Of a stretch of 64,000 nucleotides of DNA, positions 1-21,064 are shown one piece after another. Positions within the stretch are counted from its first letter, which is position 1. Every line of letters starts with the position of its first letter. Made by a program: the position numbers and the translations under genes. Under the pieces are notes generated by a model. That model was not told the origin of the DNA and did no database searches. It worked only from the letters and a program-made list of their open reading frames with translations. Source of the DNA: Natrinema gelatinilyticum. Its GTDB lineage: Archaea; Halobacteriota; Halobacteria; Halobacteriales; Natrialbaceae. The stretch spans positions 1,488,001 to 1,552,000 of the forward strand of contig NZ_CP100757.1 in NCBI RefSeq assembly GCF_024266705.1. The letters run 5' to 3'.

Positions 1-2025
1 GCCGACGGGATGGATGCCCGCGACGACGACGTCGTCGTCCACGAGTCCGTAGGGACGAACGTCGTCGACAACGAACACCTCGAGTTCGGCGATCCCGATG
101 CGGCCTTCGCGGACGCCGACCGCGTCGTCGAAGGGGAGTACACGTGGGGGCGCATTTCTGGGGTCCCGCTCGAGACGGCCGGCGCCGTCGCCCGCTACGA
201 CGACGAAACCGACTCGTTCGACATCGACTGCAACATCCAGTTGCACACCCTCGTCGACGACATGATCTACGAGACGCTCGGCTACGCGGCCGACGATGTA
301 CGGGTGAACGTCCCCGCCGACGTCGGCGGCAGCTATGGGACGAAAATCGGGATTCACCGCTACTGCTGTCTGACCGCGATGGCGAGCCAGCAACTCGAGC
401 GGCCGGTGAAGTTCGAGGAGGACCGAATCGAGAACCTCCAGGGCGGCGACATGCACTCCTCGGACCGCACGTACGAGGTCCGGATGGCCGTCGACGACGA
501 CGGCACAATGCGAGGCCTCGACGTCTGGTTCGTCGACGACTTCGGCGCGTACCCGCGGTACCCGATCAATCAGGTGCTCAAGCCGCTGTCGGTGCTGACG
601 AACTCCTACGAAATCGCCGACGTCAGTTACGAGTACGACCTCGTGCTAACGAACAAGACGTCCCAGACCGCCTACCGCGGGTTCGGCGTCGACCCCCACA
701 TCTACGCCCTCGAGATGATCGTCGACAAGGCCGCCCGCGAACTCGACATGGATCCGAGCGAATTCCGGCGTCGAAACCTGATCACGCCCAACCAGATGCC
801 CTACCGGCTCCCGTCACACAACCTCTACGACTCGGGCGACTACCCTGCGACGCTCGACCGAATCGAGGAGATCATCGACGACGAGCGCGACGGCGGCATG
901 CTGGACCCCGAAGTCGTCGCCGAGAAGCGCGAGGAGGGGAAGTACCGCGGCGTCCAGCCAAGCGTCATCATCGAACCCGGGGCGAGCGGCTCCGACTGGA
1001 CCGACCGCCAGCGGACCGACAAGGACGACCTCGAGGAGCGCTCGCGCGACGAGGTCGACGAACTGCCCGAACACCTTCGCGCCGAAATCCGCGAGGACGG
1101 GTCGGTTCGCGCGTACCTCGCGACCGACTCCTCCGGACAGGGCCACCAGACGCTGGTCTCCCAGCTGCTCGCGGACGAACTCGGCGTCCTGCCCAGCGAC
1201 ATCGAGGTCGACTACCTCGACAGCGTCGACGCGCCAACCGAGTACGGGAGCGCGGCCTCTCGCATGGCCGTGATGCTGTCGGGGGCGACCGTCGGCGTCA
1301 CAGAGCGGCTCGTCGCCAACCTCGAGGCGCTCGCGGCCGATCACTGGGACGTCTCGACCGACGACGTCTCTTATCAGGACGGCACAGTCGATCGGCTCGG
1401 CACCAACGACTCGCTCTCGCTGGCCGAGCTCGCCGAACTCGACGCGGCGGTGAATGACGCCGGCGACCGGCGGACCCGCGTAAGATACAACTACGACCAC
1501 CCCGCGACGAACCTCGAGGAGTTCGACGAGGCGCTGACGCGGAAGTATCCGGTCTACCCGACCGCCGCGTTCGGCGCGAACGCCCCCATCGTCGAGGTCG
1601 ACGCGGAGACCGGCGAAGTCGAGATCCTCAAGTTCTACACCGTCCGCGACTGCGGGACGATGCTCAACCCGATGATCGTCGAGGGACAGGCCCACGGCGG
1701 GATCGCCCAAGGGATAGGTGCTGCGCTGCTCGAGGAGTTCGGCTACGAGGACGACGGCCAGCCTCAGGCGATCACACTGTTCGATTACCTGTTGCCGTCG
1801 ATCGAGGAGATGCCGGTGATCGAGATGGAACACACCGAGACGCCGTCGCCGTTCACCGAGACGGGCGCGAAGGGCGTCGGCGAGGGTGGGATGATCGACG
1901 CCCCCGCGAGCATCGCCACGTCGATCAACGCGGCTCTCGAGCCGCTCTCGGCCGACGAACCCGCCGACCGGATCCCGGTCGCACCGGACCACCTCCGGAA
2001 GAAGCTGCGGGAGCGCGACAAGTAA
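1..2025 (+). CDS. Molybdenum hydroxylase large subunit (xanthine dehydrogenase/CoxL family), 5'-partial
   Basis: This is the molybdopterin-binding catalytic subunit of a xanthine dehydrogenase-family enzyme, which hydroxylates N-heterocycles or aldehydes using water. The reading frame is open from the first base, so roughly the first 100 residues of a usual 750-800 aa protein lie outside the window; the ATG at 10 is probably internal. Visible motifs are a GQGHQT stretch near codon 380, an AYRGFG loop near codon 224, and GAKGVGEGG near codon 625 carrying the catalytic Glu. The AYRGFG loop is xanthine dehydrogenase-like; CO dehydrogenases have a Cys-containing VAYRCSFR loop there. The FAD subunit and a CoxG-like protein lie convergently downstream. 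No 2Fe-2S subunit is visible. The family is certain; the substrate is not, although the nucleobase genes nearby favour a purine or pyrimidine. Confidence 0.93.
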   Translation, partial: ADGMDARDDDVVVHESVGTNVVDNEHLEFGDPDAAFADADRVVEGEYTWGRISGVPLETAGAVARYDDETDSFDIDCNIQLHTLVDDMIYETLGYAADDVRVNVPADVGGSYGTKIGIHRYCCLTAMASQQLERPVKFEEDRIENLQGGDMHSSDRTYEVRMAVDDDGTMRGLDVWFVDDFGAYPRYPINQVLKPLSVLTNSYEIADVSYEYDLVLTNKTSQTAYRGFGVDPHIYALEMIVDKAARELDMDPSEFRRRNLITPNQMPYRLPSHNLYDSGDYPATLDRIEEIIDDERDGGMLDPEVVAEKREEGKYRGVQPSVIIEPGASGSDWTDRQRTDKDDLEERSRDEVDELPEHLRAEIREDGSVRAYLATDSSGQGHQTLVSQLLADELGVLPSDIEVDYLDSVDAPTEYGSAASRMAVMLSGATVGVTERLVANLEALAADHWDVSTDDVSYQDGTVDRLGTNDSLSLAELAELDAAVNDAGDRRTRVRYNYDHPATNLEEFDEALTRKYPVYPTAAFGANAPIVEVDAETGEVEILKFYTVRDCGTMLNPMIVEGQAHGGIAQGIGAALLEEFGYEDDGQPQAITLFDYLLPSIEEMPVIEMEHTETPSPFTETGAKGVGEGGMIDAPASIATSINAALEPLSADEPADRIPVAPDHLRKKLRERDK

Positions 2026-2139: not shown

Positions 2140-2646
2140 TCAGTTGTCCGACTCGAGCGCGGCGTCCTCTTCGGGCGCGGCCTCGAGTTCCGATTCGGCC
2201 GGGACGCCCTCGTTGGCTTTCTCCTGCATCTGTGAGAAGAACTTCTCGACCAAACGGTTGGTGACGCTCTTGAGCGCGCGGCCGCCGAGGCTGGCGATCG
2301 TCCCTGAGACGTCGGCGGACGCGGACCAGACGACCGTCGTTCCGCCGTCGTTTTCCCGGAGTTCCATCTCCGCGACCGTCTCGAACTCGTTTCGCGGCGC
2401 GTGACCGGTCGCCTTCATCTCAAGCACGTCGGGACGGTCAGTGCGGGTGACCACGACGTCGACGTCAAACTCGGGCTTGACGCTCCCGACGCCGACGGCC
2501 ATGACCGCCTCGATTTCGTGGGGGGAGACGAGGTTCATCTCCTTGCATCCGGGCGCGCACTCGGCGAGGATATCGGTGTCCGTGAAGTGCGGCCATAGTT
2601 CTTCTTTCGACTGTCCCATCTCGTTTTCGCCGGTGAATTCTAACAT
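2140..2646 (-). CDS. CoxG-like SRPBCC family protein
   Basis: This 168-residue protein starts MLEFTGENEMGQSKEELWPHF and has the CoxG/SRPBCC pattern, with a conserved early segment (DTDILAECAPGC) in which a Pro-Gly turn precedes the second strand. In carbon monoxide dehydrogenase CoxG anchors the enzyme to the membrane; related proteins accompany many molybdenum hydroxylases. The C-terminal tail after about residue 145 is very acidic and low in complexity. The ATG overlaps the end of the FAD-subunit gene by 7 nt, so the two are translationally coupled. A longer upstream start in this frame would run through the FAD-subunit gene and was not used. A second CoxG-like gene is at the right end of the window. 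Confidence 0.85.
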   Translation of the reverse strand: MLEFTGENEMGQSKEELWPHFTDTDILAECAPGCKEMNLVSPHEIEAVMAVGVGSVKPEFDVDVVVTRTDRPDVLEMKATGHAPRNEFETVAEMELRENDGGTTVVWSASADVSGTIASLGGRALKSVTNRLVEKFFSQMQEKANEGVPAESELEAAPEEDAALESDN

Positions 2647-3542
2647 TGTGTCTCCGTTGCTACCGCGCGTTCGTACGACGTTTCGAGCGAGCGCTTGGCG
2701 TACTCGCCGGCCACTTCCTCCTTGTAGTCTCGATCGGCGTGCATCTCCGACTCGGGCGTGACCGCCCCGGAGACGGTCTCGACGACTGCCTCCAGTCCCT
2801 CCACCGAGAGGGGAGTCCCCTCGACGTGGGCCTCGGCCTCCTCGACGCGAAGCGGGACGTCCGCCGCGTTGGCCAGTGCGATCCGGGCGTCTTCGATGAC
2901 GGGGTCGTCCGCAGTCGGATCGTCGACCCGGATCGCGGTAGCCGCGCTGACCGTCGGGAAGGTCTGAGCCGCCCGCTTCAGTTCGACGAATGCCATGCCG
3001 GTCCGCTCGGGAGGGAACGGGCCCGTCGGTATGGAAACGGACTCGATGAGTTCCTCCTCGCGGAGGTCCGTGAACATGTAGGCGATGAAGTAGTCGTCGA
3101 CGGGGACGTCCCGACTCCCCTCGGTCGACCGGAGATGGAGCGTTCCCTCGAGCGCGACCAGCGCCGCGGGGTAGTTCCCCGCCGGATCGGCTTCGCCGAT
3201 GCTCCCGCCCATCGTCCCCTGATTGCGCACCGACGGGCCGGCGATCTGCTCGGCGGCCTCGGGGAGCATGGAGAGGCGCTCGGCGAGTCGGTCCGAGCGC
3301 TCGATCGTCCGGTGGCGCGCCATCGCACCGATTCGGACCGCGTCGTCGTCGACGTCGATGAACTCGAGTTCGTCGACGCCGTTGAGGTCGACGAGGTGAT
3401 CGGGAGTTGCCAGTCGGTTCGCCATCACGATGCCGAGCGACTGGTTCCCCGCGAGGAGTTCGGCCTCCTCGAGTTCGTCGAGGAGCTCGAGCGCTTCCTC
3501 GACCGTCCCCGGTCGGTGATGGGTGAACGGTGCCGGCTTCAT
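2640..3542 (-). CDS. Molybdenum hydroxylase FAD-binding subunit (CoxM/XdhB-like)
   Basis: This is the 300-residue FAD subunit that passes electrons from the molybdenum and iron-sulfur centres to the acceptor. The N-terminal FAD-binding half has the hallmark AGNQSLGIVMANRL segment (the family AGGxSLxPxMxxRL motif) near residues 32-45 and VRNQGTMGGSIGEADPAGN near 106-124 (family RNxGTxGGN). The C-terminal CO_deh_flav_C domain follows from about residue 175. It starts an operon with the CoxG-like gene and is convergent with the large-subunit gene. In many operons the order is CoxM-CoxS-CoxL; here the small 2Fe-2S subunit is not between them. Confidence 0.92.
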   Translation of the reverse strand: MKPAPFTHHRPGTVEEALELLDELEEAELLAGNQSLGIVMANRLATPDHLVDLNGVDELEFIDVDDDAVRIGAMARHRTIERSDRLAERLSMLPEAAEQIAGPSVRNQGTMGGSIGEADPAGNYPAALVALEGTLHLRSTEGSRDVPVDDYFIAYMFTDLREEELIESVSIPTGPFPPERTGMAFVELKRAAQTFPTVSAATAIRVDDPTADDPVIEDARIALANAADVPLRVEEAEAHVEGTPLSVEGLEAVVETVSGAVTPESEMHADRDYKEEVAGEYAKRSLETSYERAVATETQC

Positions 3543-3776: not shown

Positions 3777-4535
3777 ATGCTCGACGGTTACGAGATGTAC
3801 GACCTGACGCAGCCGTGGTCACAGGACACGCCGGCCTGGCCGACGTACGACAATCCCAAGGTCTGGTACGAGAAGAGCCTGGACACGGAGAAGGTGAACG
3901 GACAGAAGATCGAATTCATGAATCACACCGGAACGCACCTCGACGGCGAGAAACACTTCGTCGCGAGCGGGCGGGACATCGAGGAGGTCGGCCTCGACGA
4001 ACTGGTCGGCGACGCGGTGGTCGCCGACATCTCCAACAAGGTCGGCGACTACGACGTCTACACCAGCGAGATGATCGAGGACGTCTGCGACGTCCGGGAG
4101 GGCGACATCCTGTTCATCCACACGGGATACCAGGACCACGCGTGGCACACCGAGGAGGCGGACCCGCACCGGTACTTCTGCAAACACCCCGGTCCGAACG
4201 CCGAGTTCGCCGAGTGGTGCAAGGAGATGAACCTGAACTACCTCATCCTCGACTGCGGCAGCGCGGACCACCCGATGAACACGGTCATCCGTGACGTCCG
4301 CCCGGAACTCGCCGAGGAAGCCGCCGACCACCTCGGCGTCGACGACCTCGACGAGATCTTCCCGCCCGAGGGGTATCAGATCATGCACACCGAGCTCTTC
4401 CCAGAGGGGATCATCCACGTCGAGAACGCTCAGGTCCCCGCGGAACTGCTCAACGAGCGCGTTCAGATCGGAACCTTCCCGTGGCGGTTCCGCGGCGGCG
4501 AATCCAGCGTCTCCCGCGTCGTCGCGTTCGAGTAA
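3777..4535 (+). CDS. Cyclase family hydrolase (kynurenine formamidase-like, PF04199)
   Basis: This 252-residue metal-dependent hydrolase has the family signature HTGTHLDGEKHF at residues 51-62 (HxGTHxDxxxHF), which supplies the metal ligands and the catalytic His. The family includes kynurenine formamidase, isatin hydrolase and 'polyketide cyclase'-type enzymes that open cyclic amides or hydrolyse formamides. The start is the first ATG after a TATA-like box, and the length is normal. It lies between the molybdenum hydroxylase genes and cytosine deaminase, so a role in opening an oxidised heterocycle is reasonable, but this is inference. Kynurenine formamidase proper is the main alternative; no kynureninase is visible. 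Confidence 0.88.
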   Translation: MLDGYEMYDLTQPWSQDTPAWPTYDNPKVWYEKSLDTEKVNGQKIEFMNHTGTHLDGEKHFVASGRDIEEVGLDELVGDAVVADISNKVGDYDVYTSEMIEDVCDVREGDILFIHTGYQDHAWHTEEADPHRYFCKHPGPNAEFAEWCKEMNLNYLILDCGSADHPMNTVIRDVRPELAEEAADHLGVDDLDEIFPPEGYQIMHTELFPEGIIHVENAQVPAELLNERVQIGTFPWRFRGGESSVSRVVAFE

Positions 4536-4674: not shown

Positions 4675-5967
4675 CTAGCGCTGGAAGTCGATTGGCCGAT
4701 CGCCTTCTTCTTCGCGGACGACCCGGGTGCTCGCGGGCTCCGTCCGCGCGATTTCGCGTCCCTCCTTGAGGACCAGCGTTCGCGGTGCTCGCGTCCGGAG
4801 CGTGTTGAACGGGTCCGGAGCGTCGTAGACGACGAGCGATCCCTCCGCCCCGACGGAGAGCCCGTACTCGTCGACGCCGAAGGCGCTCGCGTTCACCGTT
4901 GTGAGCATCTCCCAGATCGGTTCGACGTCACCGCGACCGCTCATATGCGCGTAGTGGAGCAGCACGAACGCGGCGTCGAGCGGATCGCCGCGGCCGTAGT
5001 GATACCACGGGTCCATCACGGAGTCGTGACCGAGCCCGACGGTGACCCCGGCCGCCCGCAGTTCGTCGATTCTAGTGTGACCACGGCGGCGGGGGTAGTC
5101 GTCGTGTCGCCCCTGCAACACCGAGTTGTCCGGCGGGTTGGTTATCACGTCGACGCCGCTCTCGGCGAGCAGCGAAATTACCTTCGCCGCGTAACTGTTG
5201 GGATACGAGTGCATCGCCGTCGCGTGGCTCGCCGTCACGCGGTCGCCGATCCCGCGCTTGCTCGCCTCGCTGGCGAGCACTTCGGTGAATCGCGACCCCG
5301 GATCGTCCGTCTCGTCGATGTGGAGGTCAGCGGGTCGATCGTACGCCTCCGCGAGGTCCATCGCGAGTTCGACCGACGCGACGCCGTCCTCGCGAGTGTG
5401 TTCGTTGTGCGGAATCGCGCCCACGACGTCCGCCCCCATCTCGAGGGCCTCCCGGAGCAGATCCTCGTGAGTCGGGTCGGTGAAGATCCCGTCCTGCGGA
5501 AACGCGACGACCTGTAGGTCGACCAGGTCCGCGACTTCTTCCCGGAGCTCGAGCAGGGCCTCGACGCCGGTCAGCGACATCTCCGTCGTATCGGCGTGGG
5601 TCCGGACGCGGGTGACGCCATGGGCCGCGAGCCACTCGACCGTCCGTTCGGCCCGCGATTTCACGTCGTCGGCCTCGAGAGCGTCCTTCCGATCCCCCCA
5701 GATCCGGATTCCCTCGGCGAGCGTGCCCGACTCGTTCCACGTCGGGTTGCCGGCGGTGAGCGTCGCGTCCAGATGGATGTGCGGTTCGGTCAGCGTCGGC
5801 GTCACGAACCGGCCGGCGGCGTCGTACCGCCGGGACTCCGGGACGGCCGTCGGATCGATCGATCCGGTCGACTCGAGGCGCGAAATACGTCCGTCTTCGA
5901 TCGCGATGTCGATCGACGATCCGTCGACGGCGGTGGCGTCGGTGACGATCCACGAGGTCATATGCAT
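4675..5967 (-). CDS. codA: Cytosine deaminase (CodA-type amidohydrolase)
   Basis: The product is a 430-residue amidohydrolase-superfamily enzyme expected to convert cytosine to uracil and ammonia. Metal and substrate motifs follow E. coli CodA closely: HIHLD (H63, H65), FPQDGI (E. coli FPQEGI), HIDETDD, SHATAMHS and GHDSVMDPW. Long stretches between them also match, such as WNESGTLAEGI and RRRGHTRIDEL. One difference stands out: the residue after the metal-binding Asp is Ser, where E. coli has Asp314, a specificity residue. An ATG two codons later is an equally good start. The gene is divergent from a CodB-type permease, as expected for a cytosine uptake and deamination pair. Isoguanine or another aminopyrimidine is an alternative substrate. 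Confidence 0.92.
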   Translation of the reverse strand: MHMTSWIVTDATAVDGSSIDIAIEDGRISRLESTGSIDPTAVPESRRYDAAGRFVTPTLTEPHIHLDATLTAGNPTWNESGTLAEGIRIWGDRKDALEADDVKSRAERTVEWLAAHGVTRVRTHADTTEMSLTGVEALLELREEVADLVDLQVVAFPQDGIFTDPTHEDLLREALEMGADVVGAIPHNEHTREDGVASVELAMDLAEAYDRPADLHIDETDDPGSRFTEVLASEASKRGIGDRVTASHATAMHSYPNSYAAKVISLLAESGVDVITNPPDNSVLQGRHDDYPRRRGHTRIDELRAAGVTVGLGHDSVMDPWYHYGRGDPLDAAFVLLHYAHMSGRGDVEPIWEMLTTVNASAFGVDEYGLSVGAEGSLVVYDAPDPFNTLRTRAPRTLVLKEGREIARTEPASTRVVREEEGDRPIDFQR

Positions 5968-6105
5968 GGATTCCAGTCCACGATAATAATAGTACCGAGG
6001 GTGCCGTTGTGAACAGGCAGTAGATCGAACAACCGGTGGACGAATAGCCGAAAGTTGGCGGATCTATTCCACTTCTATCAGAAAGATTGATTATTGTGGG
6101 ATAGA

Positions 6106-7506
6106 ATGTCACGCTATATGGCAACATCTGACGATAGATTCGACTGGTATCGCATTGTGTTCGGCGACGACGACCTATCGGATCCCGACTACCCACTCGA
6201 TCACGTCCCGAAGGACGAGCGGAAGGGATTGATCAGCCTCTCGGCCGTCCTACTCGGACTCGTCTTCTTCGCGGGGACGATGTGGGCGGGCGCGGAAGTC
6301 AGCGCGGCGATGGGCTTTCAGGAGATGCTGACCGCGATGGTCGTGGGCCACATCATTCTCGGGGCGTACGTCGCCCTCCTCTGTGCAATCTCCGCGAACG
6401 CGGGGCTCACGACCGTCCTGCTCGCTCGCTACTCGTTCGGCCGGATCGGTGCCAAGTGGGCAGATCTCCTGTTGGGCGGCACGCAGGTCGGCTGGTTCGG
6501 CGTAACGATCCCGATGGTTGCTATTCCGACGGCAACGTATCTGGGCCTCGAGAGCGCGACGATGGTCGGCGCGGTAATTCTTATCTGGGGCCTGTTACAC
6601 ATGTCGACCGCGTACTTCGGATACGACGGCATGGAGAAGCTCTCGTACGTCGCAGTACCCTTTCTCGTGATTGTAGGGCTGCTTTCGATCGCTCTCGCAG
6701 CCGGCGACGCCGGCGGGATCGACGGCCTCATGTCGCAGACCGGCGGCGGCGAGATGTCGTTCGGTCTCGCGGTAACGATCGTCGTCGGGACGTTCATCAG
6801 CGCGGGTACGCAGGCCCCGAACTGGGCGCGGTTCGCGATCAACTCGCGCATCGCCTTTTGGGCCGGGTTGATCGCGTTCCTCGTAGGCAACAGCTTCCTC
6901 TTTCTCAGCGGTGCGGTCGGCGGGACCGTCTACGACGTGACTCCTTCGGGCGACCTCTACGAGGTGCTGGTCGCACAGGGGCTCGCGTCCGTCGGCCTGA
7001 TTGCGCTGATCTTGAACATCTGGACGACCAACGACAATGCGGCCTACGCGTTCAGCGTCGCCGGAGCCGAGGCCTTCGAGTTCGATCGAAAGCGGCCGTT
7101 CGTCATCGCTGGGTGTGCGATCGGGATCCTCCTCGCGCTGGCCGGCGCCGACGAACTTCTCCTGCCGTGGCTCGAACTCCTCGGGCAGTACATTCCGCCC
7201 CTCGGTGCGGTCATTATCGCCGACTTCCTACTCTGTTGGCGGGGATCGGTTCCCCGCATGGACGGCGTTCAGTTCACAGGCGTCCGGTGGGTTGGCGTAT
7301 TCGCCTACGCCGCCGGCTGTCTCGTCGCGATCCTGACCGCCGGATCGGTGCTGCCGGGCGTCACGGCACCGGCTCTGATTCCGGGAATGGCCGCTCTCAA
7401 CGGGATGATCACCGCTGTGGTCGTTCACGTCGTCGGCTACTACGCCCTCGAGGAAACCGGTCTGCTTCCGGCTCACCGGGTTCACGAGGACGCCGACCGA
7501 GTCTGA
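6106..7506 (+). CDS. codB: Cytosine permease-like NCS1 transporter (CodB-type)
   Basis: This is a 12-helix nucleobase:cation symporter-1 protein of 466 residues from the chosen ATG. It carries family segments also seen in E. coli CodB: a Lys-Gly pair opening helix 1, FFAGTMWAGAEV, GLTTVLLARYSFG and LLLGGTQVGWFG. It should import cytosine or a related base at the cytoplasmic membrane. Three in-frame starts are possible: TTG at 6094, ATG at 6106 and ATG at 6118. The AT-rich stretch at 6083-6095 looks like promoter sequence, which argues against the TTG. The 138-bp gap to the divergent deaminase gene contains both promoters. Confidence 0.9.
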   Translation: MSRYMATSDDRFDWYRIVFGDDDLSDPDYPLDHVPKDERKGLISLSAVLLGLVFFAGTMWAGAEVSAAMGFQEMLTAMVVGHIILGAYVALLCAISANAGLTTVLLARYSFGRIGAKWADLLLGGTQVGWFGVTIPMVAIPTATYLGLESATMVGAVILIWGLLHMSTAYFGYDGMEKLSYVAVPFLVIVGLLSIALAAGDAGGIDGLMSQTGGGEMSFGLAVTIVVGTFISAGTQAPNWARFAINSRIAFWAGLIAFLVGNSFLFLSGAVGGTVYDVTPSGDLYEVLVAQGLASVGLIALILNIWTTNDNAAYAFSVAGAEAFEFDRKRPFVIAGCAIGILLALAGADELLLPWLELLGQYIPPLGAVIIADFLLCWRGSVPRMDGVQFTGVRWVGVFAYAAGCLVAILTAGSVLPGVTAPALIPGMAALNGMITAVVVHVVGYYALEETGLLPAHRVHEDADRV

Positions 7507-8352: not shown

Positions 8353-10242
8353 TTACCGCGGCTTGACGGGCAGTTCGACGTGCGTCGAGTACTCCGCGTC
8401 GTGGTGCACGGCGTTGGTCGCGACCTCGTACTCGCGGTCGCCGTAGAGCGGGCCACCGGTGTTGTAGTTCACATCGAACCGCGGGTAATTCGACGAGGAG
8501 ATGTCGAGCCGGATGCGGTGGCCCGCATTGAAAACGTTCGCCGTCGGGTACGGTTTCATGTAGAACTCGTATACTTCGCCGGGTTCGAGCAGGTCAGGTT
8601 CGTCGCGGTAGCCGCGATATCGCCCGCGACAGATCGAGTCAGCGAGGTTTACCGCGAAGCCGTTCGGATGCTCCTCGCTGGGCGGGTACTCGTCGATCAC
8701 CTTCGCCGTGAAGTCGGTGTCGGGTGCGTCGGTCGAGCCGTAGACGCGCACGCGGATTGGGCCCACGATCTCGAGATCCTCTTCGAGGGGCTCCGTCCGG
8801 TAGACGAGGACGTCGTTGCGCTCCTCGAGCGGGCCGTAGGGCGCCTCGGCACCGAAGGTGTCGGGTCGGGTGCGCTGGTCGAACCCGCCGCGGCCGGTGA
8901 TGTCCTGCAGGTTGCGCTCGGAGAGGGGGTACTCGATCAGGTTCTCGTCTCTGGGCTCGTAGGTGATGTACGACGAGCAGTTACCGCCGAGGGTCGGCAC
9001 GGGATCGTGCGGATCGAACTCGTAGCTCGTCGCGGCGTCCTCGACGGTGGGCTCGTTCGTCGACAGTCGGCCGTCGCCGTGGGCGTAGTAGGTCTCGAAC
9101 TCGGTCTCTGGCAGCGGCCACTCGTCGCCGGAGCGCCACTCGCCGCCGTGGAACAGCCGCTCGTCGCGGGTTTGGGAGCCGTCGCCGGTCCCCATCTGGA
9201 AGTACTCCACCGTCGGCTGATCCGCCCAGGTGTCCGCGCCCTTCAGGTAGTGGTCGAAGAAGCGCAGCCGTGTCTCCTGATAGTCGCGCAGCGCCTGTTC
9301 GCCGAACTCGAGTTCGCCGGAGTAGGGCTTGTTCCACGATGGGAGGGGATAGGTGTTCCAGCCGTGAGTCCACGGTCCCATCAGCAGGTAGTGGTCGCTG
9401 TCTTTGCGCTCGGCGAGCGCCTCGAAGTTGTCGCAGGTCGCCTTCGTATAGGAGTCGTACCACGCGCCCGAGTAGACGGTCGGGACGTCCGCCATCTCGT
9501 CGTAGTAGGCCTCGAAGTTGAGCCCGGGTTCCTGCCAGAGTTCGTCGCTCGCGGCCCCTCGCGTCATGATGTCGAACGCCCACCCCTCGTAGTCGGGGAT
9601 GTGTCGCAACGGCGACTGTCCCGGCTGGACAGGGCCGTTCGCGAGCACATCCCGGACGTCGACGTTGGCGAGCCGTTGCTGGATATCCGAATCCTCGAGT
9701 GCCCGCTTCGCGAAGCCGCCGCCGAGGGTGTACGCCCAGCAGAGCCAGCGGAGTTCGAAGGCGCCGTTGTGGCGGAACGTCGCCTCGCGGCCGTTCGCCG
9801 CGCCCTGGTTGACAAACATGGCCTCGAGGTGTGGCGGGTCCTGCGTGGCGAGCGCCGTCTGGACCCATGCGCCGTAGGACGTGCCGATCGTGCCGACCTG
9901 GCCGTCGCAGTAGGCCCGGTCGGCGAGCCACTCGACGGTGTCGTAGCCGTCTTCGGGCTCGTTGACGAAGATGTAGTACTCGCCCTCGCTGTCGAATCGC
10001 CCGCGACAGTCCTGAATAGCGACGACGTAGCCGCGCTTGGCGAACCACTCGCCGTGGCGCTCCATTCGGCCGCGCTTCCCGTAGGGGGTCCGGTCGAGGA
10101 GCGCGGGCTTCGGATCGTCGATCGGCTCCCCCGTCTCGGGGTCGGTCGGCCGATAAATGTCCGTCGCGAGTTCGGTACCGTCTCGCATCTCGACCATCAC
10201 GTCTAACTCAGCGGTGACTGCGTAGTCCGGATCAGCTGCCAT
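8353..10242 (-). CDS. CocE/NonD family hydrolase (X-Pro dipeptidyl-peptidase S15 fold)
   Basis: This 629-residue alpha/beta hydrolase of the S15/CocE family comprises acyl esterases and acyl-peptidases. The nucleophile elbow is GTSYGAW, near residue 125. Strand and oxyanion segments (DRTPYGKR, YVVAIQDCRGRFDSEGEYY) are present, as is the C-terminal jelly-roll domain (from about residue 400) with RIRLDISSSNYPRFD. Cocaine esterase and glutaryl-7-ACA acylase are known members; the substrate here cannot be told. The ATG at 10242 was preferred over the GTG immediately upstream. It is divergent from the uracil/xanthine permease, with 346 bp between them. Confidence 0.9.
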   Translation of the reverse strand: MAADPDYAVTAELDVMVEMRDGTELATDIYRPTDPETGEPIDDPKPALLDRTPYGKRGRMERHGEWFAKRGYVVAIQDCRGRFDSEGEYYIFVNEPEDGYDTVEWLADRAYCDGQVGTIGTSYGAWVQTALATQDPPHLEAMFVNQGAANGREATFRHNGAFELRWLCWAYTLGGGFAKRALEDSDIQQRLANVDVRDVLANGPVQPGQSPLRHIPDYEGWAFDIMTRGAASDELWQEPGLNFEAYYDEMADVPTVYSGAWYDSYTKATCDNFEALAERKDSDHYLLMGPWTHGWNTYPLPSWNKPYSGELEFGEQALRDYQETRLRFFDHYLKGADTWADQPTVEYFQMGTGDGSQTRDERLFHGGEWRSGDEWPLPETEFETYYAHGDGRLSTNEPTVEDAATSYEFDPHDPVPTLGGNCSSYITYEPRDENLIEYPLSERNLQDITGRGGFDQRTRPDTFGAEAPYGPLEERNDVLVYRTEPLEEDLEIVGPIRVRVYGSTDAPDTDFTAKVIDEYPPSEEHPNGFAVNLADSICRGRYRGYRDEPDLLEPGEVYEFYMKPYPTANVFNAGHRIRLDISSSNYPRFDVNYNTGGPLYGDREYEVATNAVHHDAEYSTHVELPVKPR

Positions 10243-10588
10243 CACGTTTATTGATTCGGTCGGAGTGTAATAGTTTATTCCCCGGTTACGCTTCGATCGC
10301 CGCCGAAACAGGGTCTCTCGATACGGCGGTTCGACTGAACCTCTCGCGGGCGCGAACCGTCGGAATTTCAGATCCGATATTTTCCACGAGTCTCCAGACC
10401 GATTATCTTGTCTGGCAATGAGAGTCGACGAACGCTACGGAATCGTTCATCGAACAGCCCTACTAATTGATGACCAAGCGGACATTGTTCGCAGCGATAT
10501 CTTTATGTGTATTCGCTCTGCCAATCATGCTATACCTGTACAAGTGTAAACGCTCGACACACGCACTACGGTACAGGTGGTGATATCA
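10243..10588. other. Intergenic region with two divergent promoters
   Basis: No gene is visible. It is clearly more AT-rich than its surroundings and has TATA-like stretches on both strands, for example CTTTATG near 10500 and CTATACC near 10529 pointing at the permease, and TTTATTG near 10247 close to the hydrolase start. Which is used cannot be decided by eye. Confidence 0.5.
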
Positions 10589-12154
10589 ATGACGGATCAC
10601 AGCGACACATCGGATGAGATCACTACGGACGGGGGGGAAATCTCCCGGGATGAGGCATCGTTCGTCGAATACGGCATCGAAGACAAACCGCCGCTGGGCA
10701 CGTCGATACTGCTCGGGTTACAGCACTATCTGACGATGATCGGCGCGACGGTCGCGATTCCGTTGGTCCTCGCGGGTGCGATGGAGATGCCCGCAGCAGA
10801 GACGGCTCGACTCGTCGGCACGTTCTTCGTCGTCTCGGGGATCGCGACCCTGTTACAGACGACGGCCGGGAACCGGTATCCGATCGTTCAGGGCGGGACG
10901 TTCGCCCTGCTCGCACCGGCGCTTGCGATCATCGCGGCGATGGGCACCGGGTGGGAAGCAACGATCCTCGAGTTACAAGGCGCGGTCATCGCGGCTGCCT
11001 TGGTGCAGGTTCTGCTCGGCTACGTCGGTGCCCTGGGCAAACTCAAGTACTACCTCTCGCCGGTCGTCATCGCGCCAGTGATCGTGCTGATCGGTCTCTC
11101 GCTGGTCGGCACCGCAGACGTCACGAGAGCAGATCAGAACTGGTGGCTGCTCGGGTTCACCCTGTTCCTGATCGTACTGTTCTCGCAGTACCTCGACCAA
11201 TACAGTCGCTACGCGAAACTGTTCCCCGTTCTGCTGGGGGTGGTCGCCGCTTGGATCACTGCTACAGTCCTCTCGGTGACCGGCATCTACGGTCCAAATA
11301 CGCTCGGTTACGTCGATACCGGAGCGATCGCCGACGCGTCCGCGATACAGATAATCACGCCGCTGCAGTGGGGGATGCCGCAGTTTACCGCCGCCTTCGC
11401 GATCGGGATGTTCGCCGGCGTCATGGCGTCCATGATCGAAAGCATGGGTGACTACTACGCCGTCGCCCGGATCGCCGGCGTCGGTGCGCCGAGCGAAAAA
11501 CGGATCAACCACGGTATCGGAATGGAGGGAATCGGGAACGTCATCGCGGGGATCATGGGGACGGGCAACGGCTCAACTTCCTATGGTGAAAACATCGGCG
11601 CGATCGGTATCACCGGTGTTGCCTCCCGATACGTCGTCCAGATCGGCGCGATCGTCATGCTGATCGTCGGATTCGTCGGCTACTTCGGCGCCCTGATCAC
11701 GACGATTCCGGGCCCTATCGTCGGTGCGTTGTACATTGCGATGTTCGGACAGATCGCCGCGGTCGGCCTATCGAACCTCAAGTACGTCGACCTCGACGCG
11801 TCGCGTAACGTCTTCATCATCGGGATCGCGCTCTTCCTCGGACTCGCCATTCCGGAGTACATGGCGAACGTTGGGAGCGCCGCCGCGTTTCAGGATATTA
11901 CCTCGGGTGCGACGCTGATCGGACCGGTCCTCGGGCAACAGATCGTCTCCGACACGATCTACGTGTTCGGATCGACCACGATGGCCGTCGGCGGCACCAT
12001 CGCCTTCGTGCTCGACAACACGATTCGCGGAACCCGCAAAGAACGCGGTCTCGAGCACTGGGAACAGCTCGCCGAGGACGACGAGGAGTTCGTCACGTTC
12101 TTCGAGCGGATCGGGTCGTCCGAAAAACCGAAACCGGTCGACAAGGCCGACTAG
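10589..12154 (+). CDS. Uracil/xanthine permease (NCS2 family)
   Basis: This 521-residue membrane protein belongs to the nucleobase:cation symporter-2 family, like UraA, UacT and PbuX. It has an N-terminal acidic tail, the helix-1 QHYLTMIGATVAIPL segment (His in the conserved QH), the YPIVQGGTFALLAP half-helix, and the signature GNGSTSYGENIGAIGITGVASR region (family NxG, QNxGxxxxT). The residue after the Glu is Asn, as in UraA-type proteins. It should import uracil, xanthine or uric acid. The ATG at 10589 was chosen over the GTG four codons earlier. Two nucleobase permeases of different families beside cytosine deaminase and a molybdenum hydroxylase support a salvage or degradation block. Confidence 0.92.
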   Translation: MTDHSDTSDEITTDGGEISRDEASFVEYGIEDKPPLGTSILLGLQHYLTMIGATVAIPLVLAGAMEMPAAETARLVGTFFVVSGIATLLQTTAGNRYPIVQGGTFALLAPALAIIAAMGTGWEATILELQGAVIAAALVQVLLGYVGALGKLKYYLSPVVIAPVIVLIGLSLVGTADVTRADQNWWLLGFTLFLIVLFSQYLDQYSRYAKLFPVLLGVVAAWITATVLSVTGIYGPNTLGYVDTGAIADASAIQIITPLQWGMPQFTAAFAIGMFAGVMASMIESMGDYYAVARIAGVGAPSEKRINHGIGMEGIGNVIAGIMGTGNGSTSYGENIGAIGITGVASRYVVQIGAIVMLIVGFVGYFGALITTIPGPIVGALYIAMFGQIAAVGLSNLKYVDLDASRNVFIIGIALFLGLAIPEYMANVGSAAAFQDITSGATLIGPVLGQQIVSDTIYVFGSTTMAVGGTIAFVLDNTIRGTRKERGLEHWEQLAEDDEEFVTFFERIGSSEKPKPVDKAD

Positions 12155-14474: not shown

Positions 14475-15614
14475 ATGACCGACGCATTTGTCACCGGTGT
14501 CGGAATGACCCAGTTCGAATCCGAGGGTCCCGAGTCCGCCCTCGAGTTGGCCGAGCAGGCGGCGTGGCGGGCTCTCTCCGACGCCGCCGTCGAACCGGCG
14601 GACGTGACCTCCGTTCACGTCGGCAACATGGCGGCGGAGGCGTTCGAGGGGCGAACGGGGATCGAAAACGCGCTCTGTGGTGCCCTCGGCGTCGAAGGGG
14701 CGATCGTGGATCGGATCGAGAACACCAGCGCAAGCGGCGCGAGCGCCGTCCTCCGCGCCGTCCACGCGCTCGAGGCGGGCGCGTCGTCCTGCGCCCTCGT
14801 CGTCGGCGCCGAAACGATGACGTCGGCCGAGACCGACGAGGCGACGGAACTCATCAGTCAGCTCGTCCACGACCGGGAGTACGCGCAGGGCGTGACCCTT
14901 CCGTCGTTCGCGGGACTGGCGGCCGACCGCTACCTGCGGACGTACGACGTCGATCGGACGGCGCTCGCGCGGGTTGCGGTCAAGAACCACCGTAACGCCG
15001 CGGCGAACCCGTACGCGCAGTTTCAGGAACCGATTACCCTCGAGGAGGCGCGAGCCTCGCCGCCCGTCGCGGACCCCCTCCGACTGTACGACTGCTGTCC
15101 GACGAGCGACGGCGCCGCCGCCGTTGTTCTCGAAACGGCCGGTGACGGCGTTCGGATCGCCGGCATCACCGGCGCGACCGGCACGCACGCAGTCGCCGAA
15201 CGATCGAGTCCGCTCGAGATCGAGAGCGTCGAGCGGGCCGGGCGCGGGGCGCTCGACGCCGCCGGCGTCGCGCGCGACGACGTGGAAGTCGCCTGCGTTC
15301 ACGACGCCTTCACGATCCTCGAGTTACTTGAACTCGAGGAACTGGGATTCTACGACCGCGGCGAGGCCTGGCAAGCGACGGTAGACGGCAGTACGGCCGT
15401 CGACGGCCGGCTGCCGGTCAATCCTGGCCGCGGGCTCAAGGCCCGCGGCCACCCCCTCGGCGCGACCGGCGTCGCGCAGGTGGTCGAACTGACCTGGCAG
15501 TTGCGCGGCGACGCCCCCGAAGAGCGACGTGTCGACGATCCGCGGACGGGGCTCGCGCTCAACGTCGCCGGATTCGGAAACAACGCGGTCTGTACCGTTC
15601 TGCAGAGATCATGA
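14475..15614 (+). CDS. Thiolase-fold enzyme (SCP2/aldolase-like) lacking the canonical nucleophilic Cys
   Basis: The protein has 379 residues and a thiolase fold. The His motif GLKARGHPLGATG is near residue 320 and HDAFTILELL near 277. At the usual nucleophile position the sequence is IENTSASGASA, where a catalytic thiolase has (E)NACASG, so Ser replaces Cys. The C-terminal CxG motif is also missing (NVAGFGNNAVCTVL). It is translationally coupled (ATGA) to a DUF35 protein. Thiolase-fold partners of DUF35 proteins that lack the Cys include Ltp2, which with ChsH2 performs a retro-aldol cleavage of steroid side-chain CoA esters. By analogy this may be an aldolase rather than a thiolase; that is inference. 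Annotation pipelines would probably call it acetyl-CoA acetyltransferase. Confidence 0.85.
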   Translation: MTDAFVTGVGMTQFESEGPESALELAEQAAWRALSDAAVEPADVTSVHVGNMAAEAFEGRTGIENALCGALGVEGAIVDRIENTSASGASAVLRAVHALEAGASSCALVVGAETMTSAETDEATELISQLVHDREYAQGVTLPSFAGLAADRYLRTYDVDRTALARVAVKNHRNAAANPYAQFQEPITLEEARASPPVADPLRLYDCCPTSDGAAAVVLETAGDGVRIAGITGATGTHAVAERSSPLEIESVERAGRGALDAAGVARDDVEVACVHDAFTILELLELEELGFYDRGEAWQATVDGSTAVDGRLPVNPGRGLKARGHPLGATGVAQVVELTWQLRGDAPEERRVDDPRTGLALNVAGFGNNAVCTVLQRS

Positions 15615-15952
15615 CTCGAGACGTTCCGATCGACCATGCGTTCACCTGTGAATCGTGCGGAGACTGCTGGTATTACACGCGCGGGCGGTGCCCAACGTGT
15701 CGGTCCGAGGCGGTCGACACCTACCGGATCCGGCGGGGAGAGGTCGTCTCCGCGACGACCGTCCACGCGACGCTGCCGGGCGTTCGCTCGCCGAGCCGGC
15801 TCGGACTGGTCCGGTTCGACTACGGCGTGACGCTCGTCGCCCAGCTCGACGACGACAGTTCGGCCGGAGATACCGTCCGCTTCGGCGCCGTCGCGGTCCT
15901 TCGAGACGGCGAGCGAGCCGTCTCCGGTCCGCGGCTCAGCAGCTTCGAGTGA
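15611..15952 (+). CDS. DUF35 Zn-ribbon/OB-fold acyl-CoA binding partner
   Basis: This 113-residue protein has a rubredoxin-like zinc ribbon (CESCGDCWYYTRGRCPTC, about residues 13-30) followed by an OB-fold (VSATTVHATLPGV and LVRFDYGVTLVAQL). DUF35 proteins bind acyl-CoA and form complexes with thiolase-fold enzymes, for example in archaeal mevalonate synthesis and in steroid aldolases. Its ATG overlaps the TGA of the preceding thiolase-fold gene, so stoichiometric co-translation is likely. It is the last gene of the CoA-transferase operon. Confidence 0.85.
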   Translation: MTRDVPIDHAFTCESCGDCWYYTRGRCPTCRSEAVDTYRIRRGEVVSATTVHATLPGVRSPSRLGLVRFDYGVTLVAQLDDDSSAGDTVRFGAVAVLRDGERAVSGPRLSSFE

Positions 15953-15957
15953 CCATT

Positions 15958-16505
15958 CGTAGTAGGCTATGCGCCCCTCTCTGACCTCTGTACTCGGGTC
16001 GACGGTCTCGATCTCGTCGCGGTTCTCGCTGGTGTGGGTGTGAATGCGGACGCCGTCGTAGGCATCGGCGTGCTCGCGGGCCCCGCGCAGACACACCTCA
16101 CTACGGGAGACGGCGAACCGTGGCGTGACCGCGTACCGGATTCGATCGTCGAACGCCCCGTGGTACCGCTGGATCAGCCGCTCGCTCTCGGCGAGTCCCT
16201 CGTCGGCGTCCTTGAGGAGCCCGCCGGTGACCGCTGGTCCACTCCTTGCCGAGCACCCCGCGGATACCGGTCTCGCCAGCCGCCTCGAACGTGCGGTCGG
16301 CGTAGTTGACCGAGAGGTGGTCGACGCAGGTCGTCGTCCCGCTCTCGATCATCTCGAGGTAGCCCAGTTTCGCCGCGATTTCCATCTCTTCGAACGACAG
16401 CGACGCCTCTAACGGGGGGACGTACTCGAAGAGCTACTCGAGCAACTCTGCGTCGCCGGCGATGACCGTTCCGAAGAGTAGCATACCGCGCGAGCATCAG
16501 TCGGC
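15958..16505 (-). pseudogene. Truncated amidohydrolase (TrzA/AtzA-like), cut by the IS630 element
   Basis: Read on the minus strand, the remnant begins near the IS end with LLFGTVIAGDAELLE, meets an in-frame TAG where a Trp is expected, and continues LFEYVPPLEASLSFEEMEI and LGYLEMIESGTTTCVDHL. It then shifts frame within the GVLGKEW region and resumes with FDDRIRYAVTPRFAVSR and VRIHTHTSENRDEIE. These are blocks of the chlorohydrolase/deaminase type of amidohydrolase (HTH metal-binding motif included). Both ends of the gene are missing. The 5' portion ends where the IS630 element begins, so the insertion probably caused or followed its loss. Confidence 0.7.
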
Positions 16506-16509
16506 AGTG

Positions 16510-16523
16510 TCTCATAGTGATTA
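16510..16523 (+). repeat. Left terminal inverted repeat of the IS630 element
   Basis: TCTCATAGTGATTA matches the reverse complement of 17628-17641 at all 14 positions. Confidence 0.85.
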
Positions 16524-16560
16524 AGGAGGTTATTTACCGATAGACGTAGTAGAGTTGGTA

Positions 16561-17070
16561 ATGGGTCGGCTCGACGAGATTACGCTTGAGGAACTCTACG
16601 AGCTCAAAGAGCAGATAGACGAAGGGAAGCCGCGAGAACGTGTTCTCGCGGCGATCGGGCGCAAGCAGGGCGATCAACTCGATACGTTGGCTGAACGCCA
16701 TGGAGTCGTCGAGAAAACGATCCGCAACTGGCTCGATCGGTTCGAGGAAAAACCGATCGAGCAAGCCCCCTACGACGCTCCTCGACCAGGAGGTCCAGCA
16801 AAGATCGAGGGACAAGACCGTGAGCAGCTATTCGAACAGTTGCAACAGCCGCCAACCGAACTTGGCTACGATCAGCAAGCGTGGTCAGCCAAGCTCCTGC
16901 TTCACCACGTCAAAGAGGAGTACGGCGTCGAATACCACGAAAACTACGCGTACGAGTTGCTGAGAGAGGCCGGGCTGTCCTTGCGGACAGCACGGCCTCG
17001 ACACCACGAGGCTGATCCCGAAGAGAAGGACGAGTTCCAAGAGACAGTCGAAAAAAACAGCTCGAACTGA
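16561..17070 (+). CDS. IS630 transposase, upstream frame (DNA-binding part)
   Basis: This 169-residue first frame starts at the ATG beginning MGRLDEITLEELYELKEQI. It has a helix-turn-helix (LDTLAERHGVVEKTIRNWLDRFEE) and a second winged-helix-like part (AKLLLHHVKEEYGVEYHENYAYELLREAGL), the usual bipartite DNA-binding domain of IS630 transposases. It ends shortly after A_AAA_AAC at 17052-17058, which is in the correct phase for a -1 ribosomal frameshift into the DDE frame. Without frameshifting it would give a DNA-binding protein only, a potential transposition inhibitor. Confidence 0.85.
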   Translation: MGRLDEITLEELYELKEQIDEGKPRERVLAAIGRKQGDQLDTLAERHGVVEKTIRNWLDRFEEKPIEQAPYDAPRPGGPAKIEGQDREQLFEQLQQPPTELGYDQQAWSAKLLLHHVKEEYGVEYHENYAYELLREAGLSLRTARPRHHEADPEEKDEFQETVEKNSSN

Positions 17071-17600
17071 ACGAGAAGACCGTCGTTGTTGTCGATCAAT
17101 TCACCAAGCACGTTGGAACCGTCCAGCGGCGTGGCTGGTACCCGATCGGTTCGAACCCGACGATAGAGACGGCAACTTCCTGGAAGTCGGTGACAGTGCT
17201 GGGCGCTGTCACCGACGACGGTGACAGCTTCTACTGCTGGACAGAAGAGAATTTAACCAGGCCCTACGGGATTCGGCTGTTAGAGACGTTGTCCGACAAG
17301 TTCGGTGAGGAATTAGTGGTATTTCTGGACCGAGCGGGCTACTTCTACGCGAGGGATCTCTGGGAGCACGTGAGCGGAGAGCGCGAGACCGAAACTGTCG
17401 GAGACAGTTCGGTCTCGTGCGTGCGCGGCGACAATCTCGAAGTGTGGTACTTCCCGTCGAAACTCCCCGAATTGAACGCCGTCGAAGGGTGTTGGGACCA
17501 ATTGCAGGAATGGTTCAAGTATCGACTCATTCCAGATCTCTCGACGCTGAAAGACTACATTCCACGAGGACTGAGCGTGATCAACGAACCAAACATCTGA
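17058..17600 (+). CDS. IS630 transposase, downstream DDE frame (reached by -1 frameshift)
   Basis: This frame carries the RNase H-like catalytic domain. The first Asp is in VVVVDQFTKHV, soon after the frameshift; the second is in VVFLDRAGYF and the Glu is in LNAVEGCWDQL, so the DDE triad looks complete. An internal ATG at 17190 would lose the first Asp, so translation is expected only as a fusion with the upstream frame after slippage at 17052-17058. The fused product would be about 346 residues, normal for IS630. No stop codon interrupts the -1 frame across the overlap. Confidence 0.8.
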   Translation, partial: QLELNEKTVVVVDQFTKHVGTVQRRGWYPIGSNPTIETATSWKSVTVLGAVTDDGDSFYCWTEENLTRPYGIRLLETLSDKFGEELVVFLDRAGYFYARDLWEHVSGERETETVGDSSVSCVRGDNLEVWYFPSKLPELNAVEGCWDQLQEWFKYRLIPDLSTLKDYIPRGLSVINEPNI

Positions 17601-19285: not shown

Positions 19286-19750
19286 TCACCGCGGTACGAA
19301 CACGTGGATCGGCCAGTCGGTCTCGTACGAGAGCGCAGTCGATAGCTCGGCCTGGGTGGGCTCTCGAGTCCTGAGTGTGACGGGGTCGCCGATGTCCACG
19401 TCCTCGTAATCGGCGTCGAGCCGGCCGGGCAGCCGGCCGCCAGAGGCGAGTTCGACCACCGCGACGGTATACGGCGCATCGTCCGCCAGCGCAGGTGGCG
19501 GTGTGTGAACCGCGGTGTAGCTGTAGACCTCTCCCTCGCAGGGTTGGGGACGAAGCGCCACATCCCGACTGCCACAGGCAAAGCAGGCCGGTCGGGGCGG
19601 CAGGAGCACCTGGCCGCAGTCCTCGCAGACGCCGGCGAGAAGGTCGCCGTCAGAAAGCGCATCGAAGAAGCCGGGCAGCGTCAGCGGGCTGTCGGCGTCG
19701 AGGTCGCGAGTGTCACTCCCGTCACACCCCGCTCGGTCGTCGTCGCTCAT
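19286..19750 (-). CDS. DUF35 Zn-ribbon/OB-fold acyl-CoA binding partner
   Basis: The product is 154 residues: an acidic N-terminal tail, then a zinc ribbon (CEDCGQVLLPPRPACFACG, about residues 42-60), then an OB-fold (EVYSYTAVHTPPP, APYTVAVVELASGGRLPG). Its ATG overlaps the end of the upstream thiolase-fold gene by 4 nt. It is longer than the DUF35 protein at 15.6 kb and only distantly similar, so the two pairs are not a recent duplication. It is expected to hold the acyl-CoA for its partner enzyme. Confidence 0.87.
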   Translation of the reverse strand: MSDDDRAGCDGSDTRDLDADSPLTLPGFFDALSDGDLLAGVCEDCGQVLLPPRPACFACGSRDVALRPQPCEGEVYSYTAVHTPPPALADDAPYTVAVVELASGGRLPGRLDADYEDVDIGDPVTLRTREPTQAELSTALSYETDWPIHVFVPR

Positions 19751-20916
19751 CCCGCCACCTCCGCTTCGAGGACGTGGGCAACGGTCATCGCGTCGGCGAT
19801 GCCGCCCTCGTTCACCAGCAGCGCCGTGTCGGCGTCCGGTCGGGCCCGCTTACCCGCCGCACCGGTGAGCTGCTCGTAGCCCTCGATGGCCTGGTAGAGC
19901 CCGGTTGCACCGATGGGGTGCCCGCGTGCCTTTAGCCCACCGCTCGTCGAGAGCGCGACGTCAGTCCAGCCGTTCGCCCGCTCGCCCTGGGATAGGTGGC
20001 TCTGGTAGCCGGTCCCCTTCGGCGCGAATCCGGCCGCCTCCGCCAGCAGCGCCTCGGAGACGGTGAAGGCATCGTGGATCTCGGCGATGTCGACGTCCGC
20101 TGCGGTGATGCCAGCCTCGTCGTAGGCCGTGTTGATGGCGACACGGGCGCCCTCAACCTCGGTCATGTCCCGCTCGGCGACGCCGATGTTGCTCGCGGCC
20201 GCGCCAGTGCCGGACACGGCGACCGCCGGTACGTCGAGGTCGGCGGCCACCTTGGGGGTCGTTACGAGCGCGACCGCGGCTCCGTCGCCGACCGGCGCGC
20301 AGTCGTAGAGCTTCAGCGGCGGGGCAACCGGTGGCGACCCCAGGACGGTCTCGGCGTCGACCTCCTTGCGGAACTGCGCGCGCGGGTTCGCTACCGCGTT
20401 CCGGTGGTTCTTGACGGCGATCTCGGCCAGGTCGCGCTCAGTCGCATCGGTCTCGTGGAGGTATCGTTGGGCCAGCAATGCGTACTGGCTCGGCGCGGTC
20501 ACGCCTGAGCGCTGCTCGAGCGGGCGGTCGAACGCCGCCGAGAGCGAGTCGGTCGTGCCACCGGTCCCCCCGGCGGACATTTTCTCGACGCCACAGGCTA
20601 GGACAGCGTCGTGCTCGCCATTTCGGACGTCCTTGACCGCGTGGCGGAGGGCGAGCGCGCCCGCGGCGGCACACGCCTCAACGCGCTCGGCGGGGACGTT
20701 GCGCAGCCCGGCCCACTCAGCCAGCAACGTCCCCTGCATAATCTGGTGTTCGTATTGCTCGGACTGGTTGCCGACGTACAACGCCTCTACCAGCGACGCC
20801 GGGTCAGGGAGGCCGTCGAAGGCCTCCGCCAGTGCCACCGAGAACAGGTCGCGTCCCGGGAGGTCCGCGTCGTCGACCTTGGAAGCCCCAACCGCTGCGA
20901 TGACTGGCTGTGTCAT
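19747..20916 (-). CDS. Thiolase-fold enzyme paired with DUF35; atypical nucleophile region
   Basis: This 389-residue SCP2/acetyl-CoA acetyltransferase-like protein has HDAFTVSEALL near residue 275 and GGLKARGHPIGATG near 325. In the nucleophile loop it reads RVEACAAAGALAL; aligned on the Gly, its Cys sits one residue before the usual place (VENACASG). The C-terminal CxG is replaced by VNEGGIADAMTV. It may therefore be a weak thiolase or, with its DUF35 partner, a retro-aldolase. A strong Shine-Dalgarno (GAGGAGGA) touches the ATG at 20916. Longer in-frame starts upstream are non-conserved. Confidence 0.87.
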   Translation of the reverse strand: MTQPVIAAVGASKVDDADLPGRDLFSVALAEAFDGLPDPASLVEALYVGNQSEQYEHQIMQGTLLAEWAGLRNVPAERVEACAAAGALALRHAVKDVRNGEHDAVLACGVEKMSAGGTGGTTDSLSAAFDRPLEQRSGVTAPSQYALLAQRYLHETDATERDLAEIAVKNHRNAVANPRAQFRKEVDAETVLGSPPVAPPLKLYDCAPVGDGAAVALVTTPKVAADLDVPAVAVSGTGAAASNIGVAERDMTEVEGARVAINTAYDEAGITAADVDIAEIHDAFTVSEALLAEAAGFAPKGTGYQSHLSQGERANGWTDVALSTSGGLKARGHPIGATGLYQAIEGYEQLTGAAGKRARPDADTALLVNEGGIADAMTVAHVLEAEVAG

Positions 20917-20940
20917 TCCTCCTCTGTTTGCCACGGACGC

Positions 20941-20946
20941 TAATAG
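20941..20946 (-). promoter_or_regulatory. TATA-like box of the thiolase/DUF35 operon
   Basis: CTATTA on the minus strand is centred 27 nt before the ATG at 20916, a normal distance for a short-leader haloarchaeal promoter. Confidence 0.35.
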
Positions 20947-21064
20947 GCTTTGTCTCGCCTGCCCGTTTCTGCCGTCACTCGCCGTCCAACATCTCCCCGG
21001 CCGGCCCACGTCTCGGAGCACGCCCGGACCACCCGTCTCGACGTGCCCGCCCAAAATCTTATCA

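Follow-up and report, generated by a model that had tools for sequence, protein, structure and literature searches.

KSQ-type decarboxylating ketosynthases have a thiolase fold without a nucleophilic cysteine and decarboxylate a malonyl thioester. Other proteins of this fold work with a DUF35 partner. The acetoacetyl-CoA thiolase of the archaeal thiolase/HMGCS/DUF35 complex (6ESQ) has both catalytic cysteines, and the benzoylsuccinyl-CoA thiolase BbsAB (7PXP), also a thiolase fold with a DUF35 protein, has the nucleophilic one in an SACSAG motif. Ltp2–ChsH2 (6OK1) and Sal–Shy (9MYR), from steroid pathways, are Cys-less thiolase folds working with a DUF35 protein; they carry a glycine at the nucleophile position and use tyrosine catalysts. 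The catalytic tyrosine of Ltp2 (YDHF) and of Sal (YDCY) has been established by mutagenesis, and the second catalytic residue is Tyr344 in Ltp2 or Cys304 in Sal (PMC12329534). TbSLP (5AB7, crystallised with malonyl-CoA), a related fold without the nucleophilic cysteine, decarboxylates malonyl-CoA slowly, with very low activity (PMC12329534); the literature searched gave no other malonyl-CoA-decarboxylating thiolase. In PhlC, an acylase with a DUF35-type thiolase fold, the C88S substitution abolishes acyl transfer (PMC6392133). Finally, for the Cys-less ST0096 from Sulfolobus tokodaii (4YZO) we found no published function in the literature searched.

A thiolase fold without its catalytic cysteines

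The window analysed here is a stretch of 64,000 nucleotides of Natrinema gelatinilyticum (NZ_CP100757.1, positions 1,488,001 to 1,552,000). One of its genes (Table 1) encodes a protein in which both the Thiolase_N and the Thiolase_C_1 domain are complete (PF00108 and PF22691; Pfam). The AlphaFold2 model of this protein (mean pLDDT 93, pTM 0.94) superposes best on 6ESQ (Z 61.4, 1.3 Å across 377 residues). Other top matches are 4YZO (Z 55.6), 7YVY and SCP2 thiolases; Ltp2 and Sal score lower, at Z 48.6 and 47.9, respectively. The dN/dS ratio against Natrinema orthologues is 0.16-0.19, which indicates that the gene is under purifying selection.

The first-pass annotation had read a serine in place of the nucleophilic cysteine, and this is borne out: Ser85 is matched, with no gaps, to the nucleophilic cysteine of 6ESQ, 7YVY and SCP2 thiolase (RIENTSASG in the window protein, RVEAACASG in 6ESQ and KIEAACASG in 7YVY). 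The GHPLGATG histidine, said to be retained, is indeed there. The C-terminal CxG, said to be lost, is absent as described, but it is not a special second loss: a cysteine occurs at this place in none of the 30 related archaeal/SCP2/DUF35-type Cys-containing thiolases, so its absence, common to all relatives of this thiolase type, is uninformative and was rejected as a special feature of the protein. The informative second loss, which that annotation did not mention, is the clade-specific change of HDCF to HDAF, by which the acid/base cysteine becomes Ala278. The window protein thus resembles 6ESQ in its DUF35 partner and in the GHP and HD.F histidines, and differs from it in both cysteines; no HMG-CoA synthase partner is seen beside the window gene.

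Table 1. Features of the window discussed in the text (window coordinates).
Feature	Position	Strand	Basis or remark
Mo-hydroxylase large subunit (CoxL/XdhA type)	1..2025	+	start lies upstream of the window
CoxG-like (SRPBCC-like) gene	2143..2649	-	named from position and appearance
Mo-hydroxylase FAD subunit (CoxM/XdhB type)	2640..3542	-	
Cyclase-family (arylformamidase/isatin-hydrolase-like) hydrolase	3777..4535	+	50-52% identity to bacterial-cluster copy
Cytosine deaminase CodA	4675..5967	-	NF005748, above cut-off
Cytosine permease CodB	6094..7506	+	NF008241, above cut-off
CocE/NonD (S15) hydrolase	8353..10245	-	conserved in haloarchaeal nucleobase-type clusters
NCS2 nucleobase permease	10577..12154	+	NCBIfam; best model xanthine permease, below cut-off
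MoeA-like gene remnant, about 135 of 403 aa	12772..13206	+	tblastn; MoeA Pfam in L014
CaiB family III CoA-transferase, 401 aa	13253..14458	+	ends 16 bases 5' of the thiolase-like gene
Cys-less thiolase-fold protein, 379 aa	14475..15614	+	Pfam/NCBIfam, PDB alignment, AF2, conservation
Ser85, codon AGC	14727-14729	+	nucleophile position
His276	15300-15302	+	alignment position
Ala278	15306-15308	+	alignment position
His326	15450-15452	+	alignment position
Asn369-Asn370	15579-15584	+	alignment position
DUF35/ChsH2-type partner, 113 aa	15611..15952	+	PF01796; ATGA overlap with thiolase-like gene

Active-site residues across the clade

Residues were counted in 79 members of the clade and in 30 related Cys-containing DUF35/SCP2-type thiolases. 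The nucleophilic cysteine of the (A)C(A/S)(S/A)G motif is found in all 30 thiolases and in none of the 79 clade members, where position 85 is a serine (66/79) or a proline (13/79). Serine occupies it throughout the haloarchaeal/Sulfolobus branch (66 sequences), and proline in the Chloroflexota (Anaerolineae), GMC4 and Hadarchaeota orthologues. Position 278 is alanine in 76 and methionine in two of the 79, compared with cysteine in 27/30 thiolases. His276 is present in all 78 clade members that align there and is replaced by tyrosine in Ltp2, Sal and 4U4E; His326 (the GHP histidine) is invariant wherever aligned. Altogether, loss of the cysteine at both sites with retention of both histidines holds for 78-79 of the 79. 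Unlike in the thiolases, Asn369 never varies in the clade, and at Asn370, Tyr153 and His238 conservation is complete or almost so. The loss of the cysteine in close homologues, named earlier as a check, is therefore complete, and the protein is not a normal thiolase, as had been proposed.

Since bacterial orthologues with a similar gene context have a proline at position 85, Ser85 is probably not a nucleophile, and the proline in the Chloroflexota, GMC4 and Hadarchaeota orthologues argues that none is needed. The constancy of the serine in the 66 sequences of its branch, with both histidines retained, would suit a weaker nucleophile in a haloarchaeal thiolase-fold acyltransferase or thioesterase; however, with proline in the sister branches, the acid/base cysteine gone as well and the related DUF35-type acylase PhlC killed by C88S (PMC6392133), we consider such an activity distinctly unlikely. 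A role as non-catalytic or structural partner in another thiolase/HMG-CoA synthase complex would also suit the loss of the nucleophile, and DUF35 proteins do belong to the thiolase/HMGCS complex of 6ESQ. Yet both histidines, the KNH and GHP motifs and the clade-specific residues are near-invariant, and no Cys-containing thiolase is conserved beside the gene, which makes a purely structural role very improbable. Judged from its residues, the clade is unable to form an acyl-enzyme and keeps the histidines predicted to stabilise a thioester enolate.

Phylogeny and comparison with Ltp2 and Sal

In an IQ-TREE phylogeny of 54 proteins the window protein falls in a clade (support 100/99) that includes 4YZO and the haloarchaeal (TSASG), Chloroflexota/GMC4 and Hadarchaeota (GPASG) and Asgard (GPSSG) proteins. 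ST0096 (4YZO), which is joined to the haloarchaeal group at 98/96, shares with the window protein the fold, the lack of cysteine and an NTS.SG motif, and differs from it by HDMA instead of HDAF and by an identity of 35-38%; a haloarchaeal chromosomal paralogue (L002) groups with it inside the Cys-less clade. BbsB groups with the SCP2 thiolases, and membership of its family was rejected on this placement and on the NF053628 score of the window protein (153 bits against a cut-off of 750).

Ltp2, Sal and 4U4E form a separate clade (100/100), so that the kinship with Ltp2 that the first-pass annotation suggested did not hold up; it is rejected on the tree and on the active-site residues His276, Ala278 and His326. 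The position of the second tyrosine of Ltp2 (Tyr344) is His326 in the window protein and that of Cys304 of Sal is Ala278: the clade, having kept both thiolase histidines and with serine or proline where Ltp2 and Sal have glycine, is without the tyrosine that these enzymes use. Together with the tree, these replacements indicate that the cysteine was lost independently of that in Ltp2/Sal, and the retro-aldolase mechanism published for those enzymes is thus not transferable. No steroid-catabolism genes lie near the window gene.

Several paralogues were also observed. A second thiolase-fold/DUF35 pair lies only 4 kb away in the window (19286-21054, minus strand); its RVEACAAAG motif has a cysteine one position early and an alanine at the nucleophile position, with HDAF, and the paralogue L008 (G000:C2:69715-70797) has the same features. 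Two more paralogues in the same genome, L011 (G000:C2:731469-732551) and L009 (G000:C2:747733-748767), belong to the Ltp2/Sal/4U4E clade and have YDCF and YDSF motifs, a glycine at the nucleophile position and an adjacent DUF35 gene; they are the better candidates for Sal-like aldolases in this genome. A chromosomal Cys-less paralogue with TSSSG and HDMF (L112:9208-10754) stands beside housekeeping-looking genes and is overlapped by a partner resembling the OB domain of DUF35 without its zinc-ribbon cysteines.

Partner genes and genomic contexts

Both neighbours named in the first-pass annotation are in place, namely the DUF35 gene coupled through ATGA (overlap at 15611; PF01796) and the upstream CaiB CoA-transferase (ending at 14458), and the pairing extends much further than this locus: among 55 haloarchaeal loci, DUF35 is found in 53 and CaiB, mostly immediately upstream, in 50. 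The DUF35 partner has the CxxC..CxxC zinc-ribbon cysteines and an OB domain, and its closest solved relatives are 6ESQ_E and PhlB. The closest models for CaiB are of enzymes for the dicarboxylates glutarate, mesaconate and oxalate, and every one of them scores below cut-off. A degenerate motif search found the Ser-type motif in 57/391 haloarchaeal genomes (22/86 genera) and the reversed control pattern in none, so that the motif is due neither to sequencing error nor to chance.

The haloarchaeal loci occur in three types of context. The first, that of the window, combines the NCS2 permease, the MoeA-like gene, the CocE hydrolase, the cyclase, the Mo-hydroxylase and a hydantoinase/dihydropyrimidinase-like gene; the window shares such nucleobase-breakdown surroundings with about a dozen relatives. 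The second has an MFS transporter, a TPP enzyme, a second CaiB and an enoyl-CoA hydratase in Natrialba and Natronococcus, and TctABC transporters with a tartrate-dehydrogenase-like gene in its Halorubrum version. The third, common and chromosomal, has an amidohydrolase and an FAH-type hydrolase.

Loci with a hydratase keep a retro-aldol reading alive. The two histidines would then replace the tyrosines of Ltp2 and Sal: CaiB would activate an acid, the hydratase would make the hydroxyacyl-CoA, and the thiolase-like enzyme would split this 3-hydroxyacyl-CoA into an aldehyde and an acyl-CoA. The lack of a nucleophile, the DUF35 partner as in Ltp2–ChsH2 and Sal–Shy (PMC12329534), and the second CaiB and enoyl-CoA hydratase near the gene in Natrialba, Natronococcus and Halorubrum loci are all consistent with this. 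It is nevertheless unlikely, given the separate clade, the loss of the catalytic tyrosine (His276) and of the acid cysteine of Sal (Ala278), and a window cluster without any hydratase.

The genome upstream of the window cluster continues with a hydantoinase-like gene, a RihA-like (pyrimidine) nucleoside hydrolase and an adenine deaminase-like gene. The CoxG-like gene, which has no NCBIfam match, matches its N. ejinorense counterpart at 86% identity across 169 aa (tblastn). The MoeA-like gene is intact in the N. zhouii, N. ejinorense and Halostagnicola clusters, and its remnant in the window is a possible sign that the Mo-hydroxylase there relies on another MoeA. Just 3' of the DUF35 gene (16101-17600), amidohydrolase-like fragments on the minus strand precede a transposase-like gene that is itself split, which suggests that a mobile element has broken the cluster on its right side. 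A query with the amidohydrolase of the third context type gave no match in the window. Related loci have additional hydantoinase and carbamoylase genes (L140, L149 and L152) and, after the DUF35 gene, urease genes recognised from their translations (L149 and L152).

In bacteria, the Anaerolineae and GMC4 orthologues adjoin the Mo-hydroxylase, the cyclase-family hydrolase and DUF35, with the NCS2 permease in Anaerolineae, and have FdrA/AllG-like genes where haloarchaea have CaiB. These FdrA and AllG-like genes (oxamate carbamoyltransferase type) were seen in L024-L026, L110 and L111. The bacterial clusters also have a conserved gene, about 229 aa long, immediately 5' of the thiolase-like one; it is GNAT-like by eye and has no family match.

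Possible decarboxylation of malonyl-CoA

The oxidative pyrimidine route leads via barbiturate to malonate and urea. Uricase and OHCU decarboxylase were absent from 13 of the 14 cluster genomes (the positive control, Haloferax volcanii, has both), and the uricase-type purine route is accordingly disfavoured; the reductive pyrimidine dehydrogenase stayed below cut-off in all haloarchaea searched, which speaks against the reductive route there. These two results favour the oxidative pyrimidine route. A canonical malonyl-CoA decarboxylase was found in none of seven cluster genomes by a search that was positive in three of six bacteria. AtzD-type barbiturase gave no match in a search where no positive control gave one either, so that ring opening would have to be assigned to other hydrolases. 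The literature searched offered nothing useful on haloarchaeal uracil or thiolase pathways.

As its residues and neighbours suggest, the window protein most likely performs enolate chemistry on a CoA thioester that CaiB provides; CaiB, with dicarboxylate-acting enzymes as its nearest models, could activate malonate. For substrate, reaction and pathway we infer from residues and context, tentatively and at somewhat less than an even chance, that CaiB makes malonyl-CoA and that the thiolase-like protein decarboxylates it. CaiB would transfer CoA from acetyl-CoA to malonate; the thiolase-like/DUF35 complex would remove CO2 from malonyl-CoA, or a close malonyl-type thioester, through the enolate-stabilising histidines; and the resulting acetyl-CoA could serve to charge another malonate. 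The source of the malonate would be the oxidative breakdown of cytosine/uracil, which would also yield urea and would be carried out by the permeases, deaminase, Mo-hydroxylase and cyclic-amide hydrolases encoded nearby.

The decarboxylation reading draws on the loss of both cysteines with both histidines kept, the proline orthologues, the frequency of CaiB, the nucleobase genes, the ureases, and the lack of uricase, reductive dehydrogenase and canonical decarboxylase in the searches above. TbSLP, with YDCF in place of HDAF, offers a precedent by analogy of working, and PhlC one for the loss of acyl transfer on Cys-to-Ser exchange. Against it stand the nucleobase-type locus L118, with no CaiB within 20 kb (in L177 one lies further away), the bacterial clusters, where FdrA/AllG-like genes take the place of CaiB, the NCS2 permease, whose best model is for xanthine and not uracil, and the AtzD-type barbiturase, for which the search above gave no match. 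The differing neighbours of other haloarchaeal loci (TctABC, TPP enzyme and hydratase; amidohydrolase and FAH-type hydrolase) imply that the substrate may differ there or be broader.

The Asgard members share an operon with genes for biotin carboxyltransferase, a 5S/OadA-like protein and a biotin carrier, and such carboxyltransferase subunits, which handle malonyl-type thioesters, agree with decarboxylation. The same operon, with its malonyl/methylmalonyl-CoA-forming enzymes, would fit the forward direction of enolate chemistry, that is, an aldol or Claisen-type condensation that depends on malonyl-CoA or acyl-CoA, proceeds with no acyl-enzyme and perhaps involves lineage-specific partners, as would the retained histidines and the wide and varied contexts. 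But the window context is catabolic and its neighbours suggest no acceptor substrate, and a condensing role seems quite improbable. In the Asgard loci L028, L032-L041 and L048 the GPSSG gene is the end of the operon and the DUF35 gene is not adjacent.

Implications for the family

Members of the clade occur in Halobacteria, Sulfolobus, Asgard archaea, Hadarchaeota and Chloroflexota, and 4YZO is the single solved one. Databases label these genes thiolase or acetyl-CoA acetyltransferase; without the cysteines, either activity is very unlikely. More broadly, archaea and some bacteria might use the thiolase-fold/DUF35 complex as their physiological malonyl-CoA decarboxylase, as the last step of an oxidative pyrimidine route with Mo-hydroxylase, cyclase-type ring-opening hydrolase and the CaiB malonate CoA-transferase; this generalisation is less likely than not. 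If true, the clade would be one of the few branches of the thiolase superfamily to live entirely without a nucleophile. A function for the clade would correct many annotations, would define a second independent loss of the cysteine in the thiolase fold and would possibly supply the terminal steps of haloarchaeal nucleobase catabolism.
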